From assembly GCF_916700565.1 (NCBI RefSeq), contig NZ_CAKAKO010000006.1, positions 558,001 to 622,000 of the forward strand: DNA of 64,000 nucleotides, written 5' to 3'. The first letter of the stretch is position 1, and the number at the start of each line of letters is the position of its first letter. The translations under genes and the position numbers were made by a program. The notes under the pieces are model-generated. The model ran no database searches and was not told the origin of the DNA. It worked only from the letters and a program-made list of their open reading frames with translations. Source of the stretch: Xenophilus sp. Marseille-Q4582 (GTDB lineage: Bacteria; Pseudomonadota; Gammaproteobacteria; Burkholderiales; Burkholderiaceae_C). This document shows positions 41,154 through 52,693 of the stretch, in pieces.

Positions 41154-41936
41154 TCAGCGCCGCGCGGACTGCGCCCAGCGCTCGATCTCGGCCGACACGC
41201 CCTGCCACGGCGGCAGGGGCACGGCGGGCGGCGGCGGGCGCCCGGCGGCGGCCAGGGCCAGCGCCTCGCCCACGCCGGCATCCACACTGTCGATCAGCGG
41301 CAGCGAGACCTGCGGCTGCAGCCATGCGGCCATGCCCGCCAGCCCGGCCCCGCCGACGATCACGCTCTGCACACCGGGCAGCAGGGCCGCCTCCAGGCAG
41401 GCCCGGGACAGCACGGCCTGCGCCAGCGCCCGGTCGGCCGCCAGCGTGGCGCCTGTTTCCGCCACCGTCACGACGCCGGCCAGCAGCGGGCCGAAGCCGG
41501 TCGCCAGGGCATGGCGCTGCAGCAGCGGCGCCCAGGCCGCCCCGCCGGTCACGATGGCGAAGCGGCCGTGCCGCGAGGCCTGCCGGAACGCCGCCTCGGC
41601 CAGGCCGGTCACCGGCGCCGCACTGCATTCGCGCAGCGCGAACAGGCCCGGGTCGCCGAAGCAGCCGATCAGCACGGCATCGGGCTCCGAGGCTTGAATC
41701 GCATCGGCCTGGCCGGCCCCGACGGTCGCAGGAAGCGCATGCGTGGCGGCGGCCCAGGCGTCCAGCGCGGCATGGGCGGCAATGGCGAAGCTGCATTCGC
41801 TGGCGATGTAGGCCGCGCCCAAACGGGCCGTGACCACCTCGACCTCGGCACGCGCCACGCACAGGCCCTGCACCCGCGCGCGCAGCAGTTCGCTGACCGA
41901 CGCCGAGGTGTTGGGGTTGATGATCAGCAGGCGCAT
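41154..41936 (-). CDS. Asp/Glu/hydantoin racemase-family protein lacking the second catalytic Cys
   Basis: A 260-residue protein of the aspartate/glutamate/hydantoin racemase superfamily (N-terminus [18 protein letters not shown]). The first catalytic Cys is present at C92 in [16 protein letters not shown]. At the second site, where racemases have GCAGM, this protein reads [11 protein letters not shown], with Gly at 196 in place of Cys. Two-base racemisation is therefore unlikely, and a one-Cys reaction (isomerase, lyase or decarboxylase type) is possible. It is the last gene of the IclR-linked catabolic operon, 19 bases after the AllA-like gene. Confidence 0.82.
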
Positions 41937-41955
41937 CCGGGGCTCCACGCGGCGA

Positions 41956-42456
41956 TCAGCCCGGCGCCAGTGCCAGCAGCGCCGGCACGGCCAGCGCATG
42001 CAGGTCGCAGTCGACGGCGGCACCCGCGCGCTCGATGACCACGAAATCCCCCGCGTCCACCGCCAGCAGCGCGTGGTGCCAGGTGCCCGGCGCAAGCACC
42101 ACGCCCTGCAGGCCGTCGCTCAGGAAGGCGGCCAGGTCCCCGGCCCCGGGCGGATCGCCGGCAGGCGCCACCGCCAGCACGAATCGCCTGGCGCCCAGCG
42201 GCACGAAGCTCTGGCTGCCCAGCGCGTGGCGCTCCATCTCGCGCAGGGGCAGCGGAAAGCGGCGCGCCTGCGCGCGAAAGAGGGCCAGCGTGGCGCGTCC
42301 GCCTGCCGCGTGCAGCTGCAGGTCGTCCACGAGGTCGAAGCGCTCGGTCGTGCCGGCATTGATCGCGCGGCCCGATGCGCCCGCACGCGCCTGCACGACC
42401 TGGCCGTAGGGCGCGAAGGCCTCGGCCGTGAGCGCCTGGGGATGCAGCGTGCGCAC
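41956..42456 (-). CDS. Ureidoglycolate lyase-family protein (AllA-like)
   Basis: A 166-residue cupin-fold protein. It has the AllA phrases MERHALGSQSFVPLG, GLQGVVLAPGTWHHALL and DFVVIER; AllA converts ureidoglycolate to glyoxylate and urea in purine-ureide breakdown. The start is GTG at 42456, which aligns with family N-termini and follows the M20 hydrolase stop by 8 bases. No allantoinase or glyoxylate gene is nearby, so the true substrate may be another ureido compound. Confidence 0.82.
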   Translation of the reverse strand: MRTLHPQALTAEAFAPYGQVVQARAGASGRAINAGTTERFDLVDDLQLHAAGGRATLALFRAQARRFPLPLREMERHALGSQSFVPLGARRFVLAVAPAGDPPGAGDLAAFLSDGLQGVVLAPGTWHHALLAVDAGDFVVIERAGAAVDCDLHALAVPALLALAPG

Positions 42457-42464
42457 CGTCAGGC

Positions 42465-43751
42465 TCAGGCGGCGATGCCCGCCTGCTCCAGCATCGCGTG
42501 CAGCAGCACGTTGCAGCCGGCCGCGAGGTGTTCGGGCTTCGCGTCCTCGATCTCGTTGTGCGAGATGCCGTCCTTGCAGGGCACGAAGATCATGGCCGCG
42601 GGCGCGGTGCGCGCCACGTAGACCGCGTCATGCCCGGCGCCGCTCACGATGTCCAGGTGCGCCAGGCCCGCGCGCTCGGCCCCCTGGCGCACCGCGGCCA
42701 CCAGCTCGGGCGCGAAATGCGCGGGCGGGTAGTACACGGTCTGCACGAGGTCCACGGCGAAGCGGCCGTCGGCCTGCAGCGCGGCGCAGGCGGCGCGCAG
42801 GCGCGCGTCCATGCGCGACAGGCCCGCGTCGTCGCCGTGGCGCAGGTCCACGGTGAAGGTCACGCGGCCCGGGATCACGTTGCGCGAATTGGGATGCACC
42901 TGCACGTAGCCCACCGTGCCGCGCGCGTGCGGCTGCTCGGCCATCGCGATGGCGACCACCTCGTTCATCAGCCCGGTGGCCGCCTGCAGCGCATCGCGGC
43001 GCAGCCGCATGGGCGTGGGGCCGGCATGGGCCTCCTGGCCCGTCACCGTCACGTCGTACCAGCGCTGGCCCAGCGCGCCCGTGACCACGCCCAGCGGGAT
43101 GCCGGCGTCTTCCAGCACCGGGCCCTGCTCGATGTGCGCCTCGAAATAGGCGCCGAAGCGCGGCGCGCCGTCGGCCACCGCGGCCGGGGCGTCGCCGGCA
43201 AAACCGATGCGGCGCAGCGCGTCGGCCACCGACACGCCTTCGCGGTCGGTCGCGGCCAGGGCCGTCGCCAGCGAGAAGTCGCCTGCGTACACCCCCGAGC
43301 CCATCATCACGGGCACGAAGCGCGAGCCTTCCTCGTTGGTCCACACGCAGACTTCCAGCGGCGCCTGGGTGCGGATGCCCGCGTCGTTGAGCGTGCGCAG
43401 CACTTCCAGGCCCGCCAGCACGCCGTAGTTGCCGTCGAACTTGCCGCCCGTGGGCTGGGTGTCGATGTGGCTGCCGGTGGCAATGGGGGCGCGCGCGGGG
43501 TCGCTGCCTTCGCGGCGCGCGAAGAGGTTGCCGATGGCGTCCACGCGCACGCGGCAGCCGGCCTCCTGTGCCCAGCGCACGAAGAGTTCACGGCCCTGGC
43601 GGTCCAGGTCGGTGAGCGCCAAGCGGCAGACGCCGCCCTTGTCGGTGGCGCCAATGCGCGCCAGGGTCATCAGCGATGCCCAGAGACGGTCGCCATCGAT
43701 GGACAAAGTGGTGGAAGCAGCGGCAGGAGCGGAAAGCACGTAGGGGGTCAT
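42465..43751 (-). CDS. M20-family amidohydrolase (allantoate/N-carbamoyl-amino-acid hydrolase type)
   Basis: A 428-residue binuclear-metal hydrolase of the hydantoinase/carbamoylase family. Metal-site motifs: ATGSHIDTQPTGGKFDG (H and D), TNEEGSRF (Glu pair), AHIEQGPVLE and the late ISHNEIED (His). The dimerisation domain (about 220-335) contains GQEAHAGPTPM. Such enzymes split N-carbamoyl amino acids or allantoate, releasing ammonia and CO2 or ureidoglycolate-type products; sequence alone does not decide which. Lies between the amidase and the AllA-like gene. Confidence 0.87.
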   Translation of the reverse strand: MTPYVLSAPAAASTTLSIDGDRLWASLMTLARIGATDKGGVCRLALTDLDRQGRELFVRWAQEAGCRVRVDAIGNLFARREGSDPARAPIATGSHIDTQPTGGKFDGNYGVLAGLEVLRTLNDAGIRTQAPLEVCVWTNEEGSRFVPVMMGSGVYAGDFSLATALAATDREGVSVADALRRIGFAGDAPAAVADGAPRFGAYFEAHIEQGPVLEDAGIPLGVVTGALGQRWYDVTVTGQEAHAGPTPMRLRRDALQAATGLMNEVVAIAMAEQPHARGTVGYVQVHPNSRNVIPGRVTFTVDLRHGDDAGLSRMDARLRAACAALQADGRFAVDLVQTVYYPPAHFAPELVAAVRQGAERAGLAHLDIVSGAGHDAVYVARTAPAAMIFVPCKDGISHNEIEDAKPEHLAAGCNVLLHAMLEQAGIAA

Positions 43752-43767
43752 GTGGAACTCGCAAGCA

Positions 43768-44949
43768 TCAGGCATCCAGGCGCTGCGCCAGCGCCAGCAG
43801 GGAGCGGTCGCTGCCCGCGGGCCCCAGCAGCGACAGGCCGAGCGGCGCGCCCTCACGCGTGGCGAGCGGCAGGCTGATCTGCGGGAAGCCCGACAGGCCA
43901 GCCATGCACAGCATCTGGATCGCGCGGTTGCGGTAGTCCTCCAGCGCCGCCTCGCTCTCGCTGCGCAGCGGCGCGATGTCGGGCATGGTGGGCATCACCA
44001 GCACGCCGTCCGTGCCCAGCAGCGCGGCCAGGTGCGCGCGGAAGCGGCCGCGGAAGGCGCGGGCCGTCGCCACCTGCGCGTCGTTCACGGCCTGGGACCA
44101 GGCGAAGCGCTCGGCCACGCCCGGCCCCAGAGGGGGCGCGAAGCGCTCGATCAGCGGGCCGTCGGTGAGCCAGGCTTCGCGCGACTGGATGTAGCGGAAG
44201 TTCCAGTACATCGTCTCGAAGGACTCCAGCGCAGCGGCGGTGGGCTGCAGCTCGCTGTCCAGCACGGCGCTCACGCGCGCCAGCGCGGGCTGCAGCGCCT
44301 CGGCCGCGGCCGGCACGGCCAGCGCCCACACGTCGGTGGGCTGCAGCAGGCGCACGCGAGACGGCAAGGGCGCGCTGTCTTCGCCCAGCAGCACCTCGCC
44401 CACCTGCGCGAAAGTCAGCGCGTCGCGCGCGAACCAGCCGCAGGTGTCCAGGCTGGGCGCCAGGTCCAGCACGCCTTCGAGGAGGATGCGCCCATGCGTG
44501 GGCCGGATGCCGTACAGGCCGCAGTGGTTGGCCGGCGCACGCACCGAGCCGCCCGTGTCGCTGCCCAGCGCGAAGTCGCACAGGCCGGCCGACACGGCCG
44601 AGGCCGAGCCCGAGGAGGAGCCGCCCGTGATACGCTGCGGCGCCGCGCCGTTGATGGGCGCGCCGAAATGCGCGTTGTTGCCGTTCATCGAGAAGGCCAG
44701 CTCGTCGGTCACGGTCTTGCCGACGAAGCGCGCGCCGGCGTCCAGCAGCTTCTGCACGGCCGGCGCCGTGCCGGTCTTGATGCCCGACATCGCCAGCACG
44801 AGGGGGTTGCCGCCGCCCGTGGGGTAGCCGGCCACGTCGTAGAGGTCTTTCACGCCGAAGCTCAGCTCGGCCAGCGGGCCGGTCGCGGCACGGGGGACGG
44901 GCACGTCGGGATAGGGAACGAAGGCGTGGACGGGGTCGTGCAGGGGCAT
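43768..44949 (-). CDS. Amidase-signature hydrolase
   Basis: A 393-residue amidase. The Ser-cisSer-Lys triad is visible: K in SFGVKDLYDVAG, the cis-Ser in ITGGSSSGSASAVS and the nucleophile in LGSDTGGSVRAPAN. The N-terminus is short and the overall length is like that of indoleacetamide-hydrolase-type amidases, but the substrate cannot be read from sequence. ATG 44949 is used; the open frame upstream overlaps the ABC ATPase. It is cytosolic, encoded between the importer genes and the M20 hydrolase. Confidence 0.87.
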   Translation of the reverse strand: MPLHDPVHAFVPYPDVPVPRAATGPLAELSFGVKDLYDVAGYPTGGGNPLVLAMSGIKTGTAPAVQKLLDAGARFVGKTVTDELAFSMNGNNAHFGAPINGAAPQRITGGSSSGSASAVSAGLCDFALGSDTGGSVRAPANHCGLYGIRPTHGRILLEGVLDLAPSLDTCGWFARDALTFAQVGEVLLGEDSAPLPSRVRLLQPTDVWALAVPAAAEALQPALARVSAVLDSELQPTAAALESFETMYWNFRYIQSREAWLTDGPLIERFAPPLGPGVAERFAWSQAVNDAQVATARAFRGRFRAHLAALLGTDGVLVMPTMPDIAPLRSESEAALEDYRNRAIQMLCMAGLSGFPQISLPLATREGAPLGLSLLGPAGSDRSLLALAQRLDA

Positions 44950-44969
44950 GGCAGAGGACGGGCAAGGGC

Positions 44970-46004
44970 TCAGGCGGCGAGCAGGGTGGGCGCCGTGGCG
45001 CTCGCCTCGGCCGTGCGGATGCAGCGTGCCCGATGGCCGGGCTCGAATTCGACCGGCTGCGGCTGGGACGCGCGGCAGGCGTCCACCGCCAGCGCACAGC
45101 GATCGGCGAAGGAACAACCCGGCGGCAGGGCCGACAGGTCGGGCGGCGAACCGCCGATGGTTTCCAGCCGCGTGCCGCGCGCCAGGGCGCCATGGGCGCG
45201 GCTCTTGAGCAAGGCGATGGTGTAGGGGTGGCGCGGGCTGCGGATCAGCTCGCGCGCCGTGCCCTCCTCCACGATGCGGCCCGCGTACATCACGGCGATG
45301 CGGTCGGCCACCTCGACGGCGGCGCCGATGTCGTGCGTCACGAAGATCACCGACAGGCCCAGGTCGCGCTGCAGCTCGCGCAGCAGCAAGAGGATCTGGA
45401 TCTGCACCGTCGCGTCCAGCGCCGTGGTGGGCTCATCGGCCAGCAGCAGCTGCGGGTTGCAGGCCAGGGCCAGCGCGATCATGGCGCGCTGGCGCATGCC
45501 GCCCGACATCTCGTGCGGATAGGCCTGCAGGCGCCGCTCGGGGCTGGGAATGCGCACCCGTTCGAACAGGGCCAGCGCGCGCGCATGTGCCTGCTGCTTG
45601 CTCACGCCCGGCTCGTGGCGGCGGATCGATTCGACGATCTGCGCCCCCACCGGGTAGACCGGGTCCAGCGCCAGCAGCGGCTCCTGGAAGATCATGGACG
45701 CCACCTTGCCGCGGAAATCGGCCAGCTCGCGCCCGCCCATGGCCAGCAGGTTGCGGCCGGCCACACGCACCTCGCCTTCCATGCGGGTGCGCCGTTCGGG
45801 GTGCAGGCGCAGCAGCGTGCGCAGGGTCACGCTCTTGCCGGAGCCGGATTCGCCGATCAGCGCCACCACCTCGCCGCGCTGCACCGTCAGGCTCACGCCG
45901 CTGACGGCCTGCACGGGCTTGCGGCCGCCACTGAAGGTCACGCGCAGCTCACGCACCTGCACCATGGGCGGGTCGTTCTCGGTCACCGGGATGGGATTCG
46001 GCAT
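44970..46004 (-). CDS. Dpp/Opp-type ABC transporter ATP-binding protein (DppD-like)
   Basis: A 344-residue ATPase. Walker [11 protein letters not shown], signature [15 protein letters not shown], Walker [13 protein letters not shown] and the C-terminal oligopeptide-transporter segment with Cys-rich [19 protein letters not shown]. Pairs with the DppF-like subunit 30 bases upstream. Substrate is not determined by this subunit. Confidence 0.92.
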
Positions 46005-46034
46005 GGCGGTATCTCCTGGCCTGGGGGGGATTGA

Positions 46035-47092
<1,058 letters not shown>

Positions 47093-47096
<4 letters not shown>

Positions 47097-47989
47097 CCCT
47101 TGTTGTCCATGGCCGAGCGCAGGCCGTCCGAGAGCAGGTTGAAGGAGATCGAGGTGATGAAGATCATCAGCCCCGGCAGCGCGGCCACCCAGGGCTGCAC
47201 ATAGATGGCCGTGCGCAGCGTGTTGAGCATCAGGCCCCACTCGGGCTCGGGCGGCTTCACGCCCAGGCCCAGGAAGGACAGGCCCGAGGCCAGGATCATG
47301 GACACCGCCACCAGGCTGGTGGCGTACACGAAGATGGGCCCGAGCACATTGCCCAGCACGTGCACGCGCACGATGGTGAAGGGGCCGGCGCCCGAGGCGC
47401 GCGCCGCCTCCACGTAGTCGCGCCCGCGCACCTGCGTGGTCACGGCCTCGGCCACGCGCGCGATCTGCGGGATGAACACCACCGTCAGCGAGATCAGCGA
47501 GTTGAGGATGCCGGCCCCCAGCGTGCCCGACAGCGCGATGGCCAGCAGCACCGACGGGAAGGCGTAGAACACGTCGATGGTGCGCATGATCACGGTGTTG
47601 GTCACGCCGCCGGCGTAGCCGGCCACGATGCCGATGGCCGCGCCGATCACGAAGGCGCACAGCACCGGCGTGATGCCCATGAACAGCGACAGCCGCGCGC
47701 CCACGATCAGGCGCGAGAGCATGTCGCGCCCCAGCTCGTCGCTGCCCAGCGGATGGCCTTCGGTGCCGATAGCCTTGAGGCGGTGGAGCATGGAGGACTG
47801 GTAGGGATCGGCAGGCACGATCCACGGCCCGAAGATCGCCAGCAGCACCAGCAGCCCCACCACGCAGGCGGCTCCCACAGCCACCGGGTCGCGCCGGAAG
47901 CGCAGCAGCACCGAGGCCCAGTAGCCCCGTGAACGCTGGGCCGGCAGCGGCTCGACGGCCGCCGTGCTGGGAGAAAGGATGGCGGACAT
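47093..47989 (-). CDS. Dpp/Opp-type ABC transporter permease (DppC-like)
   Basis: A 298-residue inner-membrane permease with about six helices. [21 protein letters not shown] is the DppC-type N-terminal motif (given as a 21-residue span at about 80-100; core [13 protein letters not shown]), the EAA loop is [20 protein letters not shown], and the end is [15 protein letters not shown]. The start ATG 47989 is 11 bases after the DppB-like stop. Confidence 0.92.
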
Positions 47990-48000
47990 TGGGCTCTCCT

Positions 48001-48954
48001 TCAAGCGCGTGCGATGCGCGGATCGAGCAAGGTCTGCAGGACGTCGACCAGCAGGTTGAGCACGACGAAGAACAGCGCCAGCACGAGGATCGTGCCCTGC
48101 AGCAGCGGCAGGTCGCGCTGGAAGATGGCCGAGTTCAGCAGGAAGCCCGTGCCGGGCCACGAGAACACGGTCTCGATGAGGATGGAGCCGCCCAGCAGGT
48201 AGCCCAGCTGCAGGCCCATCACGGCCAGGGCCGTGGGCGCGGCGTTCTTCACCACGTGGCGGAACACGCCGACATGCGTGAGCCCCTTGGCGCGCAGGCC
48301 GGTGATGAATTCCTGCTCCAGCAGCTCGGCCACCAGCGCGCGCACGGTGCGCGCGATGATGCCCATGGGAATGACCGACATGGTGAGTGCCGGCAGCAGC
48401 ATGAACTGCACGTGCTCCCAGTCCCAGGCCCACTGGTCGGAGCCCCCAGGGCCGGCGCCCGTGGCGGGCAGCCACATCAGCAGCGACGAGAACACGATCA
48501 CCATCACCATGCCCAGCCAGTAGTGCGGCACGCTCACGCCCAGCACCGACAGCATGGAGGCCGCGCGGTCCATCCACGAGTTGCGGAAGTAGCCGGCCAC
48601 GAAACCGAACAGGCTGCCGAGCACGAAGCCGATGACGGTGGCGATCACCGCCAGCCGCAGCGTGTTGGACACGGCGGTCATCACTTCGGTGAGCACGGGC
48701 CGGCTGCTGGCGATGGAGGTGCCCAGGTCGCCCTGCAGCGCCCGCCAGATCCACAGGCCGAACTGCTCGGGCAGCGTGCGGTTGAAGCCGTACAGCTCGC
48801 GCAACTGTGCCTGCAGCTCCGCGGACGCATCCGGCGGCAGGATGGACACCAGGGGATCGCCCGGCGACAGGTGCACCAGGGCGAAGCACACGAGGGCCAC
48901 GCCGAACATGATCGGCACGGTGTAGAGGATGCGGCGCAGGAGGTAGGCGATCAT
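48001..48954 (-). CDS. Dpp/Opp-type ABC transporter permease (DppB-like)
   Basis: A 317-residue permease with six predicted helices. The N-terminus MIAYLLRRILYTVPIMFGVA and the motif LPEQFGLWIWRALQGDLGTS are typical DppB; the EAA loop is ITGLRAKGLTHVGVFRHVVK. It follows the aspartate-dehydrogenase-like gene by 55 bases in the same direction. Confidence 0.92.
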   Translation of the reverse strand: MIAYLLRRILYTVPIMFGVALVCFALVHLSPGDPLVSILPPDASAELQAQLRELYGFNRTLPEQFGLWIWRALQGDLGTSIASSRPVLTEVMTAVSNTLRLAVIATVIGFVLGSLFGFVAGYFRNSWMDRAASMLSVLGVSVPHYWLGMVMVIVFSSLLMWLPATGAGPGGSDQWAWDWEHVQFMLLPALTMSVIPMGIIARTVRALVAELLEQEFITGLRAKGLTHVGVFRHVVKNAAPTALAVMGLQLGYLLGGSILIETVFSWPGTGFLLNSAIFQRDLPLLQGTILVLALFFVVLNLLVDVLQTLLDPRIARA

Positions 48955-49009
48955 GGGTGGACGGGCGAAGGACGGGCGGGCGCAGACCAAGCAAGTGGCA
49001 CGCCACCGG

Positions 49010-49822
49010 TCATGAGAAAACGAGCAGTTGCGCCTGGTTGTCCAGCGCGGAAAGCACACTCAGGCCGGTGACGGCAGAGCTTTTGGGGTTGGCGCCTTCG
49101 CTGCGCCCCGACACCGTGACCCTCAAGGTCGAGACATCGCTCACCGCCTCAATGGACTGAACGTTCTCGGTGGAATGCGGATCTGCCGTCAGGACCACGC
49201 GCGTGCGGTCCAGCCCCATGCCGGCCAGGGCCACCGTGGCGGCCAGGTTCGCGTTCTTCGGGAACTTCAGCGCCGCTTCACGCGCCGAGCCGTCGAAGAC
49301 CACCGTGGCCTCGGTCAGCGCATCCAGCTCGAAGGCCCCGTCGGCAGGCGTTCCGCGCCACGAAGCAGGCGGCTTCGACGAGGCATACACCAGCTGCGTC
49401 AGGCCTGCCCGGCGCAGCGCCAGCAGGCCGTCGAGCCCTGCGATGGCGCCGACCGGAATCACCAGGCGGGCGTTCCCCGCCTGCGCGGCCGCCAGGAGTT
49501 CGTCGGCCACCGCGGCGTCGGCCAAGGCACCGACGGACATGATCATCAAGTCGGCCCCGCCCCGCAGCACGCGGCTGCCGAGCTCGCGCACCGCCGGCTG
49601 CCCTGCCACTTCGACCACCACGTCGAAGGCATGGGCGAGAAAGGTCTCGGGATCGGCCGTCACCTGAACGTCGTGCGGCAGTTCGCCACGCGCGGCCGGC
49701 AACTGATGGCTGCGCGCCAGCACACCGACGACCGCATGGCCGCGCACCGGCGCCGCCTGCCAGGCCTGAATGAGCGACTGGCCGATGGCGCCGTAGCCGA
49801 TCACGCCGACTCGTTTGATCAT
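49010..49822 (-). CDS. Aspartate dehydrogenase-family protein with an altered active site
   Basis: A 270-residue NAD(P)-dependent enzyme of the L-aspartate dehydrogenase (NadX) family. The Rossmann motif is VIGYGAIGQSL, and FDGSAREAALKFPKNANLAATVALAG is the conserved central block. In known aspartate dehydrogenases a NVH motif with the catalytic His follows; here the same place reads ENVQSIEA, with Gln at 222, and the next conserved GxFG stretch is replaced by SDVS. The NPKSSAVTGLSVL end is conserved. So the fold is clear but the reaction is doubtful. It lies inside the ABC importer operon, between the binding protein and the first permease. Confidence 0.82.
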   Translation of the reverse strand: MIKRVGVIGYGAIGQSLIQAWQAAPVRGHAVVGVLARSHQLPAARGELPHDVQVTADPETFLAHAFDVVVEVAGQPAVRELGSRVLRGGADLMIMSVGALADAAVADELLAAAQAGNARLVIPVGAIAGLDGLLALRRAGLTQLVYASSKPPASWRGTPADGAFELDALTEATVVFDGSAREAALKFPKNANLAATVALAGMGLDRTRVVLTADPHSTENVQSIEAVSDVSTLRVTVSGRSEGANPKSSAVTGLSVLSALDNQAQLLVFS

Positions 49823-49910
49823 GGGGGTTCTCTCTTCAACATGGCTGCAAGGCGGCCCGATGCGGTGAACACCGCAGGGCACGCCCGGCTGTGGGGCCGA
49901 AGGGACCAAG

Positions 49911-49943
49911 CGGTGCGGCGACCGCCCTTGCGGCACCGCACCG
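49911..49943. other. Hairpin between binding-protein gene and dehydrogenase-like gene
   Basis: CGGTGCGG and CCGCACCG pair over 8 bp, 88 bases before the dehydrogenase-like ATG, in a 172-base spacer inside the operon. Another small inverted repeat, TGCGGT-GAAC-ACCGCA, lies at 49861-49876. Hairpins after a binding-protein gene often protect its mRNA and lower downstream expression. Confidence 0.4.
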
Positions 49944-49994
49944 CGGAGTGGCCCGCGCGTTCATCGGGCAGTGCCGGTCCTGCGCGTCGCCCGC

Positions 49995-51656
49995 TCAGTC
50001 CATCGTCATCGTGGCGATGTCGATGAACCAGCTGCGCGGTTGCACCACGTTCTTGACCTTGGCCGACATGGCGCGCGGGCCCACGTCATGCGCGATCAGC
50101 ACGAAAGGTGCGTCTTCCACGATGTGCGCATGCAGCTTGGCCAGCGCCTCGTCGCGCGCCTTGTCCTCGAAGGCCGTTCGCGCGTCGGCGATCAGCTTGT
50201 CCACCTCGGCATTGCCGTAGTAGCCCCAGTTGTTGGAAACCGGCGGGACCGTCTTGGTGCTCACGAAGCGCACCATCGCGAAGAACGGATCCATGGCCGC
50301 GAAGCTGATGTTGACCGCGTTGGCGCCGTTGGCCGAGGGATCCTTCGCCCCCTTGCGCCAGTTGGTGAACAGCGTGTTCCATTCGATCACGTCGAACTGC
50401 ACGTCGAAGAAGCATGCTTTCAGCGACTGCTGCACGAACTCGTTCATGGGCAGCGGCTGCATCTGGCCGGAGCCCGAGGCCGAGATCTGCACCTTGACCT
50501 TGAGCGGCTTGGCCGCGCTGTGGCCGGCCTGCGTCATCAGCGCCTGGGCCGCCTTCACGTCGTACCTGATGTCGAACTTGGGGTTGCCCCACCACGGGTG
50601 GCCCGGGCCGACGATGCCCTTGGGCTCGGCCATCATGCCGCCCAGCAGCTGCTTCAGGCCGGCGCGGTCCACGCAGAGGTTGGCCGCCTGGCGCACGCGC
50701 TTGTCCAGCCAGGGCGAGCCTTCGGCGAAGGACAGCTGCCACGGCCACACGTGCGGCTGGGCATTGCTGTAGACCTTGAAGCCGCGCTGCGTGATCTGCG
50801 GCATGGCGTCGGGCGCGGGCGCCTCGATCCAGTCCACCTGGCCGCCCAGCAGCGCCGCCGTGCGCGCATTGGCTTCGGGCATGGGCAGCAGCACGACCTT
50901 GCCGATCTTGGGCGTGCGTTTCGCGTCCCAGTAACCGGTATTGGCGGCCAGCTCCAGCCGTTCGCGCGCCACGAAACGCGTGACCTTGAAGGGCCCCGAG
51001 CCCGACGGGTCGGACGCAAAGGCGGTCCAGGCCGCCTTGGACTTGTCGGCTGGCGAAGCACCCGCGGCCGCGTCGAACTTCTTCTGCCAGTGGGCCGGCG
51101 AGGCCATGAACAGGTTCGTGAGGTTGATGGGCAGGAAGGCGTCGGGCTCGCTGGTGCTCAGCTCCACCGTCAGGTCGTCGATCTTGCGCGCGCTCTTGAG
51201 CGTGGGCATGCGCGAGGCCGTGACGCCCACCTGGCTGGCGTCGAAATGCACGGCCTCCTTGTTGAGCACCTTGTCCACGTTCCAGACCACGGCATCGGCG
51301 TTGAAGGCCGAGCCGTCATGGAACTTGACGCCCGGGCGCAGCTTGAACACCCACTTGGTCTTGTCCTTCGCGTCCACCGTCCAGCTGGTGGCCAGGCCCG
51401 GGATCAGCACGCTGGGCGCATCGGACCGGGACAGGTCCCAGTGCGTGAGCGCGTCATAGATCGGGATGCCCGTGAAGCGGTTGCCCTCGAAGCCCTGGTC
51501 CGGCTGGCCCAGCGTGCGCGGGATGTCGGCCGCCGTCATGGCGATGCGCAGTGTCTTGTCCTGCGCCAGGGCGGCGCCGCCGGCCAGCAGCGAAAGGGCC
51601 GCCAGCGCGCCCGCACGCAGCAGGGCCGAGGGACGGGACAGGGAGTGAGGATGCAT
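49995..51656 (-). CDS. Dpp/Opp-type ABC transporter substrate-binding protein (SBP family 5)
   Basis: A 553-residue periplasmic binding protein with a signal segment ending GGAALAQ (about 27-32). It has the family phrases WVFKLRPGVKFHDGSAFNADAV, GSGPFKVTRF and QAANLCVDRAGLKQLL (the first is a 22-residue span at about 97-118). Homologues bind peptides, opines or other amino compounds; the ligand is not evident. First structural gene of the operon and preceded by two CGAT-containing palindromes. Confidence 0.92.
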   Translation of the reverse strand: MHPHSLSRPSALLRAGALAALSLLAGGAALAQDKTLRIAMTAADIPRTLGQPDQGFEGNRFTGIPIYDALTHWDLSRSDAPSVLIPGLATSWTVDAKDKTKWVFKLRPGVKFHDGSAFNADAVVWNVDKVLNKEAVHFDASQVGVTASRMPTLKSARKIDDLTVELSTSEPDAFLPINLTNLFMASPAHWQKKFDAAAGASPADKSKAAWTAFASDPSGSGPFKVTRFVARERLELAANTGYWDAKRTPKIGKVVLLPMPEANARTAALLGGQVDWIEAPAPDAMPQITQRGFKVYSNAQPHVWPWQLSFAEGSPWLDKRVRQAANLCVDRAGLKQLLGGMMAEPKGIVGPGHPWWGNPKFDIRYDVKAAQALMTQAGHSAAKPLKVKVQISASGSGQMQPLPMNEFVQQSLKACFFDVQFDVIEWNTLFTNWRKGAKDPSANGANAVNISFAAMDPFFAMVRFVSTKTVPPVSNNWGYYGNAEVDKLIADARTAFEDKARDEALAKLHAHIVEDAPFVLIAHDVGPRAMSAKVKNVVQPRSWFIDIATMTMD

Positions 51657-51859: not shown

Positions 51860-52693
51860 TCAGGGGGCCAGCGCGGCCGAGATGGCGCGTGCGCAGTCGA
51901 TCACCATCGGCGCCAGCGTCTTCTGCGCGGCCGCAGGCGTCCAGCGGCTGGTGGGCGGCGACACATGCACCGCGCCGCGCGGGCGGCCCGACTTGTCGAC
52001 GATGGGCGCGGCAATGCCCATGTCGCCGCGGAACAGCTCCTCGACGTTGTGCGCGTAGCCCACGCGCCGGCAGGCGGCGATGCGCGCCTCGATGGCGCGC
52101 AGGCTGGTGAGCGTGTGCGGCGTGCGCGCCGGGCGCGGCGCCGCCTGCAGGTGCATGCGCACCTCGTCGTCGCTCAGGCAGCTGAGCCAGGCCCGGCCCG
52201 AACTGGTGCAGTACATGGGAATGCGCATGCCCACGGGCGTGAGCACCGGGATGAACTGGCTGGTCATGCGCTGCGCGAGGTAGAGCATGTCGGTGCCGGC
52301 CGCCTCGGTCAGGTGCGCCGTCTCGCCGCTGGTGTTGGCCAGCTGGGCCAGGTAGGGGCTGGCCGTCTGCACCAGCGGGTGGCCGGCGAGGTAGTTGAAG
52401 CCGATGTCCATGGTCGCGGGCAGCAGCCGGAAGCGGCGCGTGGCCGCGTCCTTGCCCACGTAGCCGAGCACCGAGAGCGTGTGCACGGTGCGCTGTGCCG
52501 AGGCACGGCTCATGCCTGTGCGCTCGGCGATCTCGCCCAGCGTCATGGTGCGGTGCGCGGCGTCGAAGGCGCGCAGCACCTCCAGCCCCTTGGCCAGCGA
52601 CAGGTTGAACAGGGGGTCGGCCTGCCTGCCGGTGCCCTCGCTCACGGAAGGTGCGGGGGCATCGGCTGCTTTTCTCTGACGGGCCATCGGCAT
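51860..52693 (-). CDS. IclR-family transcriptional regulator
   Basis: A 277-residue regulator. A winged helix-turn-helix (about 40-100) reads MTLGEIAERTGMSRASAQRT, and the effector-binding domain (about 115-275) includes GRAWLSCLSDDE and RGAVHVSPPTSRWT. ATG 52693 (MPMARQRK) and ATG 52687 are equally possible. It is transcribed in the same direction as the catabolic operon that begins 204 bases downstream, which it probably controls. Confidence 0.9.
   Translation of the reverse strand: MPMARQRKAADAPAPSVSEGTGRQADPLFNLSLAKGLEVLRAFDAAHRTMTLGEIAERTGMSRASAQRTVHTLSVLGYVGKDAATRRFRLLPATMDIGFNYLAGHPLVQTASPYLAQLANTSGETAHLTEAAGTDMLYLAQRMTSQFIPVLTPVGMRIPMYCTSSGRAWLSCLSDDEVRMHLQAAPRPARTPHTLTSLRAIEARIAACRRVGYAHNVEELFRGDMGIAAPIVDKSGRPRGAVHVSPPTSRWTPAAAQKTLAPMVIDCARAISAALAP

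Follow-up and report, generated by a model that had tools for sequence, protein, structure and literature searches.

Two altered active sites in an ABC importer operon of Xenophilus sp. Marseille-Q4582: a racemase-like protein without its second cysteine and an aspartate dehydrogenase-like protein without its histidine

The L-aspartate dehydrogenases (AspDH) of the NadX type carry an N-x-H motif, the histidine of which we take to be catalytic. According to the excerpts of PMC12661438, the OpaE variant C90S keeps 4.8% of the activity and the variant C199S at most 0.3%. The same excerpts describe a hydrogen bond between Thr119 of KpAllR (3qvj) and the substrate. Here we describe an operon from a stretch of 64,000 nucleotides of Xenophilus sp. 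Marseille-Q4582 (contig NZ_CAKAKO010000006.1, in the following called the window), which encodes an ABC importer, an amidase, an M20 amidohydrolase, an AllA-like protein and one protein related to each of these two families. In both proteins a residue regarded as catalytic is replaced, and both altered active sites are real and common to wider relatives. The two genes and the codons in question are located as follows, in window coordinates:

49010..49822, minus strand: AspDH-like dehydrogenase, 270 amino acids, ATG at 49822 (PF03447 and PF01958 above cut-off)
49157..49159, minus strand: codon of Gln222, at the His position of the AspDH family (alignment column)
41154..41936, minus strand: Asp/Glu/hydantoin racemase-like protein, 260 amino acids, ATG at 41936 (PF01177, 117 bits against a cut-off of 31)
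41661..41663, minus strand: codon of Cys92, the retained first Cys (alignment column)
41349..41351, minus strand: codon of Gly196, at the second-Cys position (alignment column)

In the racemase-like protein the first catalytic Cys is kept as Cys92 within IGCFGDPGL, and the column of the second Cys is occupied by Gly196, which aligns with the stretch VLGCGGM of 3qvj. Gln222 of the AspDH-like protein lies within ENVQSIE, at a position where 2dc1 (ENIHEI) and 1j5p (HNIHIV) have His. Both replacements had been proposed in a preliminary description of this DNA and are borne out by the alignments with these structures. The description also mentioned SDVS in place of GxFG in the AspDH-like protein, an observation which is true but carries little weight, since this stretch varies in His-bearing relatives too. 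The substitutions are not unique to this strain; strain-specific decay is ruled out by the occurrence of both altered states in relatives.

Matches to the racemase-like protein (E <= 1e-12) were found in 144 of the 399 genomes of the family. All 29 nearest relatives that were fetched (L042-L070, 58-64% identical) have the Cys/Gly state. Over 59 sequences, the two sites are Cys/Gly in 35, Ala/Gly in 14, Cys/Cys in seven, Gly/Gly in two (one gene fetched twice) and Val/Gly in one. In a tree of 56 rows, from which the two Cys columns were removed, each of the larger states fits one change. Support was 100 for Ala/Gly, 100 for Cys/Cys and 0 for the branch separating Cys/Gly, and long branches meet; this tree and that of the AspDH family are quick trees with SH-aLRT support only. 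A single origin of the Cys/Gly state is possible. Given that the Cys/Gly group was selected by its state, only its other positions count as evidence. Between the 31 rows of its main group, the window protein included, and the seven Cys/Cys rows, fourteen further conserved positions differ, among them 14, 43, 101, 131, 152, 162, 199 and 217; four distant Cys/Gly rows (L224, L229, L230, L239) were set aside for this comparison, and the Val/Gly and Gly/Gly rows belong to neither group. Position 131 is Gly in 31/31 main-group rows and Thr in 7/7 Cys/Cys rows, and Gly131 aligns with Thr119 of KpAllR (numbering derived from the alignment). Because the Cys/Gly state is common to relatives and is accompanied by concerted differences at other positions, these proteins look like a settled subfamily rather than a product of decay.

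The Ala/Gly proteins have neither catalytic Cys; their first site reads AFGDPG, their second GAPLAG or GGGPLG. They were found within the family (L223, L225-L228, L231-L235, L237, L238) and, beside the same importer as in the window, in rhizobial plasmids (L269:16536-17213 and L270:16549-17226).

The His column of the AspDH family was read in at least 105 rows and contains 40 Ser, 39 His, 25 Gly and one Gln, the latter in the window protein; the rows include near-duplicates and the yield of a pattern scan favouring the His-less branch, so these counts are not frequencies. GTDB genomes were scanned with an alignment of five AspDH-like proteins and a pattern that included Leu193, and 80 of at least 131 loci were retained. 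Among the matches listed, His-less relatives come from records labelled as Alpha- and Betaproteobacteria, two actinobacterial metagenome-assembled genomes (MAGs) and one Flavobacteriales MAG; the His column of this branch is, among the same matches, usually Gly, with Ser in the Reyranella group and Gln only in the window protein. In a tree built without columns 193 and 222, a single branch (SH-aLRT 91) divides 34 His-less rows, including that of the window, from 30 His rows, L211 and L182 being long branches. Considering only rows found without the Leu193 pattern, Leu193 accompanies the missing His in 4/4 cases and Val the retained His in 20/20. Lys150, Trp155, Asn190, Asn192, Asp214, Asn220 and Asn245-Pro-Lys are kept in more than 90% of all three groups, and among the group-specific positions no new His common to the His-less rows was found. 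That the His is gone while most of the remaining conserved residues are retained suggests a changed imine chemistry or a larger substrate of the AspDH-like protein.

Measured against curated models, the window protein remains below the equivalogs TIGR03855 (162.5, cut-off 206.55) and NF009827 (214.1, cut-off 226), and it passes the subfamily model NF009828 (“aspartate dehydrogenase”, PRK13303.1-3) with 249.3 against 177. All five His-less relatives tested also pass NF009828. As this model scores His-less proteins above its cut-off, the name aspartate dehydrogenase spreads to them.

Some of the genes near those of His-less relatives would be in keeping with a substrate that is aspartate-like or derived from an amide. 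A Sphingomonas MAG (L182) has a type II asparaginase-like gene next to the AspDH-like one, and in a Hydrogenophaga MAG (L143) such a gene ends the adjoining amino-acid ABC cluster; both stay below curated cut-offs. Further neighbors are amidases (L145, L150) and an M20 hydrolase (L147), and at L036 an L-aspartate oxidase gene is located across a LysR gene. Marine His-less genes (L159 and the clusters of L153-L156, L158 and L170) have a context unlike that of the window, near dioxygenase-, CoA-transferase- and enoyl-CoA hydratase-like genes (named by eye).

In the window, both genes are part of a row of ten co-directional minus-strand genes which runs head to tail from 51656 to 41154, with all open frames intact and intergenic distances of -4 to 172 bp. 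The preliminary description had recognized this row but spoke of nine genes, while its own list comprised ten. The order is binding protein, AspDH-like, two permeases, two ATPases, amidase, M20 hydrolase, AllA-like and racemase-like; families were assigned via Pfam and NCBIfam models. The remaining genes and the upstream regulator are:

51860..52687, minus strand: IclR-type regulator, 203 bp upstream of the binding-protein gene (PF01614 and PF09339 above cut-off)
49995..51656, minus strand: periplasmic binding protein, SBP_bac_5 (PF00496)
48001..48954, minus strand: ABC permease 1, Opp/Dpp type (Pfam/NCBIfam)
47093..47989, minus strand: ABC permease 2 (Pfam/NCBIfam)
46035..47096, minus strand: ABC ATPase 1, DppF-like (Pfam/NCBIfam)
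44970..46004, minus strand: ABC ATPase 2, DppD-like (Pfam/NCBIfam)
43768..44949, minus strand: amidase-signature enzyme (NF006169, PRK08310; 565 bits against a cut-off of 391)
42465..43751, minus strand: M20 amidohydrolase of the allantoate amidohydrolase/carbamoylase group (NF006769, 649.8 bits against a cut-off of 452)
41956..42456, minus strand: AllA-like protein (PF04115, 152.9 bits against a cut-off of 23)

Together, the binding protein, the permeases and the ATPases make up an ABC importer of the dipeptide type, encoded by five genes. We considered a promoter or terminator in the gap that separates the binding-protein and AspDH-like genes and rejected it, as no site is predicted there; the whole stretch contains 0 promoter-like and 2 terminator-like sites, compared with 0.3 and 2.3 in shuffles. 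The gap of 172 nt has a folding z of -2.33, to which no interpretation is attached.

The AllA-like gene is the only PF04115 match of the genome. A urate-allantoin cluster is located on contig C1 of the same genome; it includes puuE and a fusion of an OHCU decarboxylase domain with an M20 domain, and no AllA match was found in the 32 kb read at this place. The fusion, allantoate amidohydrolase-like in its M20 portion, lies at L303:10878-12656 beside the allantoinase gene puuE; the M20 protein of the operon is 33% identical to that portion. Since the sole AllA-family gene of the genome is located in the operon and some Cys/Gly relatives lie among allantoin genes, ureide catabolism appears to be the best reading of the operon, and N-carbamoyl amino acids or other amides are possible substrates.

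Within the family, the binding protein was matched in 49 of 399 genomes (E <= 1e-90), the window's own included, and in 43 of these with an identity of about 70% or more. Forty operon regions were compared, namely those of 39 of the 43 genomes (without G000, G175, G209 and G171) and that of G216 at 51%. Permease 1 follows the binding protein in all 40, and the other importer genes come next, to the extent that the sequence covers them. The amidase (at least 60% identity) is found downstream of the importer in 36/40 regions, in L123 only after a gap of 2.6 kb; the M20 enzyme (at least 60% identity) is present in 20/40, an AllA-like match in 18/40 and an IclR match in 14/40, some of these genes being on the opposite strand. 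Importer and amidase form a core that is conserved in many of the family's genomes; in part of these, M20, AllA-like and IclR genes are close by. Addition of 35 further regions (five plasmid records and 30 genome regions, binding proteins 42-77% identical) gave a total of 75, of which 67 have permease 1 directly behind the binding protein and eight represent paralogous binding proteins without it. Eight regions of one family (f48, L272-L279) contain two divergent adjacent copies of the binding-protein gene, 67-69% and 46-48% identical to that of the window, and an amidase-like match (30-42%) between the two ATPase genes.

None of these 75 other regions with the binding protein or its homologues contains an AspDH match, where for L103-L142 the AspDH-like protein of the window was the sole query. 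The third-position GC content (GC3) of the AspDH-like gene is 0.845, the lowest in the operon (0.898-0.956 for the nine others). Because of the missing matches and the deviating GC3, the gene appears to have been inserted late and in this lineage only, between the genes of the binding protein and permease 1. A plasmid search with the AspDH-like protein returned 83 records, none at 60% identity or above. Close relatives (53-100%) occur in five genomes, four of which (G000, G356, G347 and G011) also carry the operon; in G356, G347 and G011 the gene is on a different contig. This co-occurrence is only a hint, since G356 and G011 belong to the same genus. The genome of the window also encodes another protein of the AspDH family (G000:C3:234558-235343), in which the His is present.

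A racemase-family gene is found in 18 of the 75 regions. The two sites could be scored in 17 of them, the match in L124 ending before the second site: seven are Cys/Gly (L108, L115-L119, L126), five Cys/Cys (L120, L122, L128, L129, L267), four Ala/Gly (L269, L270, L280, L282) and one Gly/Gly (L141), so that the second Cys is missing in 12/17. Because 57/75 regions are without a racemase-family match, the gene is an optional partner of the importer. On Rhizobium, Agrobacterium and Dinoroseobacter plasmids it directly follows the second ATPase gene; in other regions it may be on the opposite strand or, in L108, past another gene. The racemase-like gene of the window falls outside the clade (support 97) of the genes that adjoin the binding protein in L115-L119 and L126, and the rows closest to it in the tree are not operon-linked. 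Racemase-family genes have therefore probably become partners of the importer repeatedly, and this speaks for a common task of the two.

Apart from this importer, 17 of the 20 Cys/Gly relatives read with their flanks adjoin one Pot-type ABC transporter and three do not. Its binding protein is 84-90% identical (best piece) to that of the Polaromonas plasmid pE10SP1 and has no match in the genome of the window, in a search made without a positive control. On pE10SP1 the Cys/Gly gene is accompanied by a dihydropyrimidinase gene, an AllA-like gene and a cyanuric acid hydrolase gene, and on a Methylobacterium oryzae plasmid it belongs to a series of genes that comprises puuE, an NCS1 symporter gene, uraH, uraD and xanthine dehydrogenase genes. 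Matches to puuE, uraH and uraD were also found near the Cys/Gly gene of L081, and one to uraD in L076.

The preliminary description had interpreted the operon as serving uptake and degradation of an amide or ureido compound, and the importer, amidase, M20 and AllA-like genes support this view at the level of gene content. That the two changed active sites mark one conserved pathway is not supported, the two proteins belonging to unrelated subfamilies with separate distributions. A conserved gene neighborhood, suggested there as a check, was not found for the AspDH-like gene, which among the regions compared occurs in this operon copy only. A single conserved pathway uniting both altered enzymes is unsupported, because AspDH is missing from the 75 regions and most of the racemase-like relatives adjoin the Pot-type transporter.

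We propose that the operon serves the uptake and hydrolysis of a ureide, which may be allantoin- or allantoate-like or an N-carbamoyl amide; together with the roles proposed for the altered enzymes, this explanation has in our estimate close to an even chance of being correct. The importer would bring in the ureide, from which amidase and M20 enzyme would set free ammonia or carbamate, while the end of the breakdown would fall to the AllA-like lyase. As a member of a subfamily with the first Cys only, the racemase-like protein would most likely not perform a two-base racemization, since one catalytic thiol is gone; it may instead catalyze a one-face proton transfer on the ureide, that is, a stereospecific protonation, a tautomerization or a decarboxylation. 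The AspDH-like protein would most likely be a dehydrogenase that depends on NAD(P) and acts on an aspartate-like or N-substituted dicarboxylic compound, with an imine step that would not need the His; it was probably recruited into the operon late and in this lineage only. More tentative, and rather doubtful as a whole, is the wider idea that this importer lineage was repeatedly paired with racemase-fold proteins that have lost their Cys pair partly or wholly, which would be non-racemizing ureide enzymes with a chemistry undescribed in the superfamily, and that a His-less AspDH branch acts on a related dicarboxylic or N-substituted product. In the open-access literature, no described racemase subfamily with the first Cys only and no His-less AspDH subfamily was found.

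Several observations weigh against the proposed ureide pathway and its altered enzymes. Matches to puuE, uraH or uraD (at least 38% identity) are present in only 2/20 Cys/Gly regions, the AllA-like protein stays below its best NCBIfam model (NF009932, 148.9 against 160), and the M20 group covers several carbamoyl compounds. Among fully flanked loci, an asparaginase, amidase or M20 gene within 5 kb was counted in 4/15 Gly, 0/22 Ser and 0/39 His cases, with seeds drawn from those same Gly loci and with L038 and L179 being the same place. The remaining points concern the active sites themselves and lead to the explanation that both proteins still catalyze the reactions after which they are named, as a hydantoin/allantoin racemase and an L-aspartate dehydrogenase, with another residue taking over. 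Folds and most conserved residues are retained, and Cys/Cys racemases are found beside the same importer. Cys180, 16 residues before Gly196, is Cys in 29/29 nearest relatives, in 31/35 Cys/Gly and 7/14 Ala/Gly rows and in 1/7 Cys/Cys rows, and 3qvj has Cys there as well. The preliminary description had regarded a nearby substitute Cys as a finding that would speak against its view; such a Cys is indeed conserved, and it is possible that it replaces the lost second one. For the dehydrogenase, the passing of NF009828 by the His-less proteins points in the same direction, and L150 and L155 even pass the equivalog NF009827 (237 and 229 against 226). On the other hand, Cys180 lies well before the lost site, the OpaE mutants make two-base racemization unlikely unless Cys180 stands in, position 131 and the thirteen other positions differ in concert between Cys/Gly and Cys/Cys proteins, and the His-less dehydrogenases have gained no common new His. 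We therefore consider retention of the named reactions unlikely, though worth keeping in mind.

Less probable still is that the racemase-like protein represents a naturally occurring decarboxylase of the (S)-type which needs no cofactor, mirrors arylmalonate decarboxylase (AMDase) and acts on a malonate-like ureide. According to the excerpts of PMC4996985, moving the AMDase Cys from position 188 to 74 switches the product to the (S)-form, and Cys74 occurs in 0/58 putative AMDases. Variants of the G74C/C188G type are discussed in the excerpts of PMC12576825. The window group has just this arrangement, the first site being Cys and the second Gly, so that its retained Cys is opposite to that of natural AMDases as described in the excerpts of PMC4996985; the decarboxylation step suggested in the preliminary description is possible. 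However, the first site carries CFGDPG, the motif of hydantoin racemases, nothing points to a substrate from which a carboxylate would leave, Ala/Gly and Gly/Gly relatives without either Cys adjoin the same importer, and the AMDase variant G74C/C188S is given in the excerpts of PMC12576825 as 20,000-fold slower than the wild type. That both altered proteins are catalytically dead passengers, or serve in binding or regulation without being enzymes, as the loss of presumed catalytic residues and the restriction of the AspDH-like gene to this operon copy might suggest, is very improbable, as relatives are open frames in many genera and both groups conserve the surroundings of the lost residues, unlike in decay.

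Both subfamilies lack a key residue of the very reaction that gave them their name: “aspartate dehydrogenase” is assigned via NF009828 and “aspartate/glutamate racemase family protein” appears on plasmid records. If their chemistry is indeed a different one, both names would be wrong in many genomes, and database names may mislead. The series of Cys states beside one importer can be seen as a natural experiment on the reshaping of a two-base racemase fold, including the natural counterpart of the Cys74/Gly188 arrangement engineered in AMDase.

Compared with known systems, the racemase-like protein resembles the allantoin/hydantoin racemase HpxA/KpAllR (3qvj, PF01177) in its fold family, the NPN motif, the first-Cys motif CFGDPG and, for some of its relatives, the links to allantoin genes. 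Unlike KpAllR, it has Gly196 for the second Cys and Gly131 for Thr119, and thirteen more positions differ from the seven Cys/Cys sequences. With the Bordetella AMDase it shares the superfamily and a Gly at one of the two Cys sites; AMDase has Gly74/Cys188, as stated in the excerpts cited above, and the window protein the reverse, Cys92/Gly196, with a racemase-type first-site motif. It is because this motif is that of hydantoin racemases that we do not file the protein as an AMDase. The AspDH-like protein corresponds to NadX (2dc1 of A. fulgidus, TM1643 of T. maritima) in the NAD-binding domain, the Asp_DH_C domain and the stretches PKNANxA and NPK, and deviates from it by Gln222 (Gly or Ser in the branch) in place of His, by Leu193 in place of Val and by Arg119 and Leu136. 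The operon as a whole recalls the allantoate/ureidoglycolate pathway (AllC-type M20, AllA) in combining M20 and AllA-like proteins; it differs from this pathway in having no allantoinase, an AllA-like protein below curated cut-offs, an amidase and a peptide-type importer.

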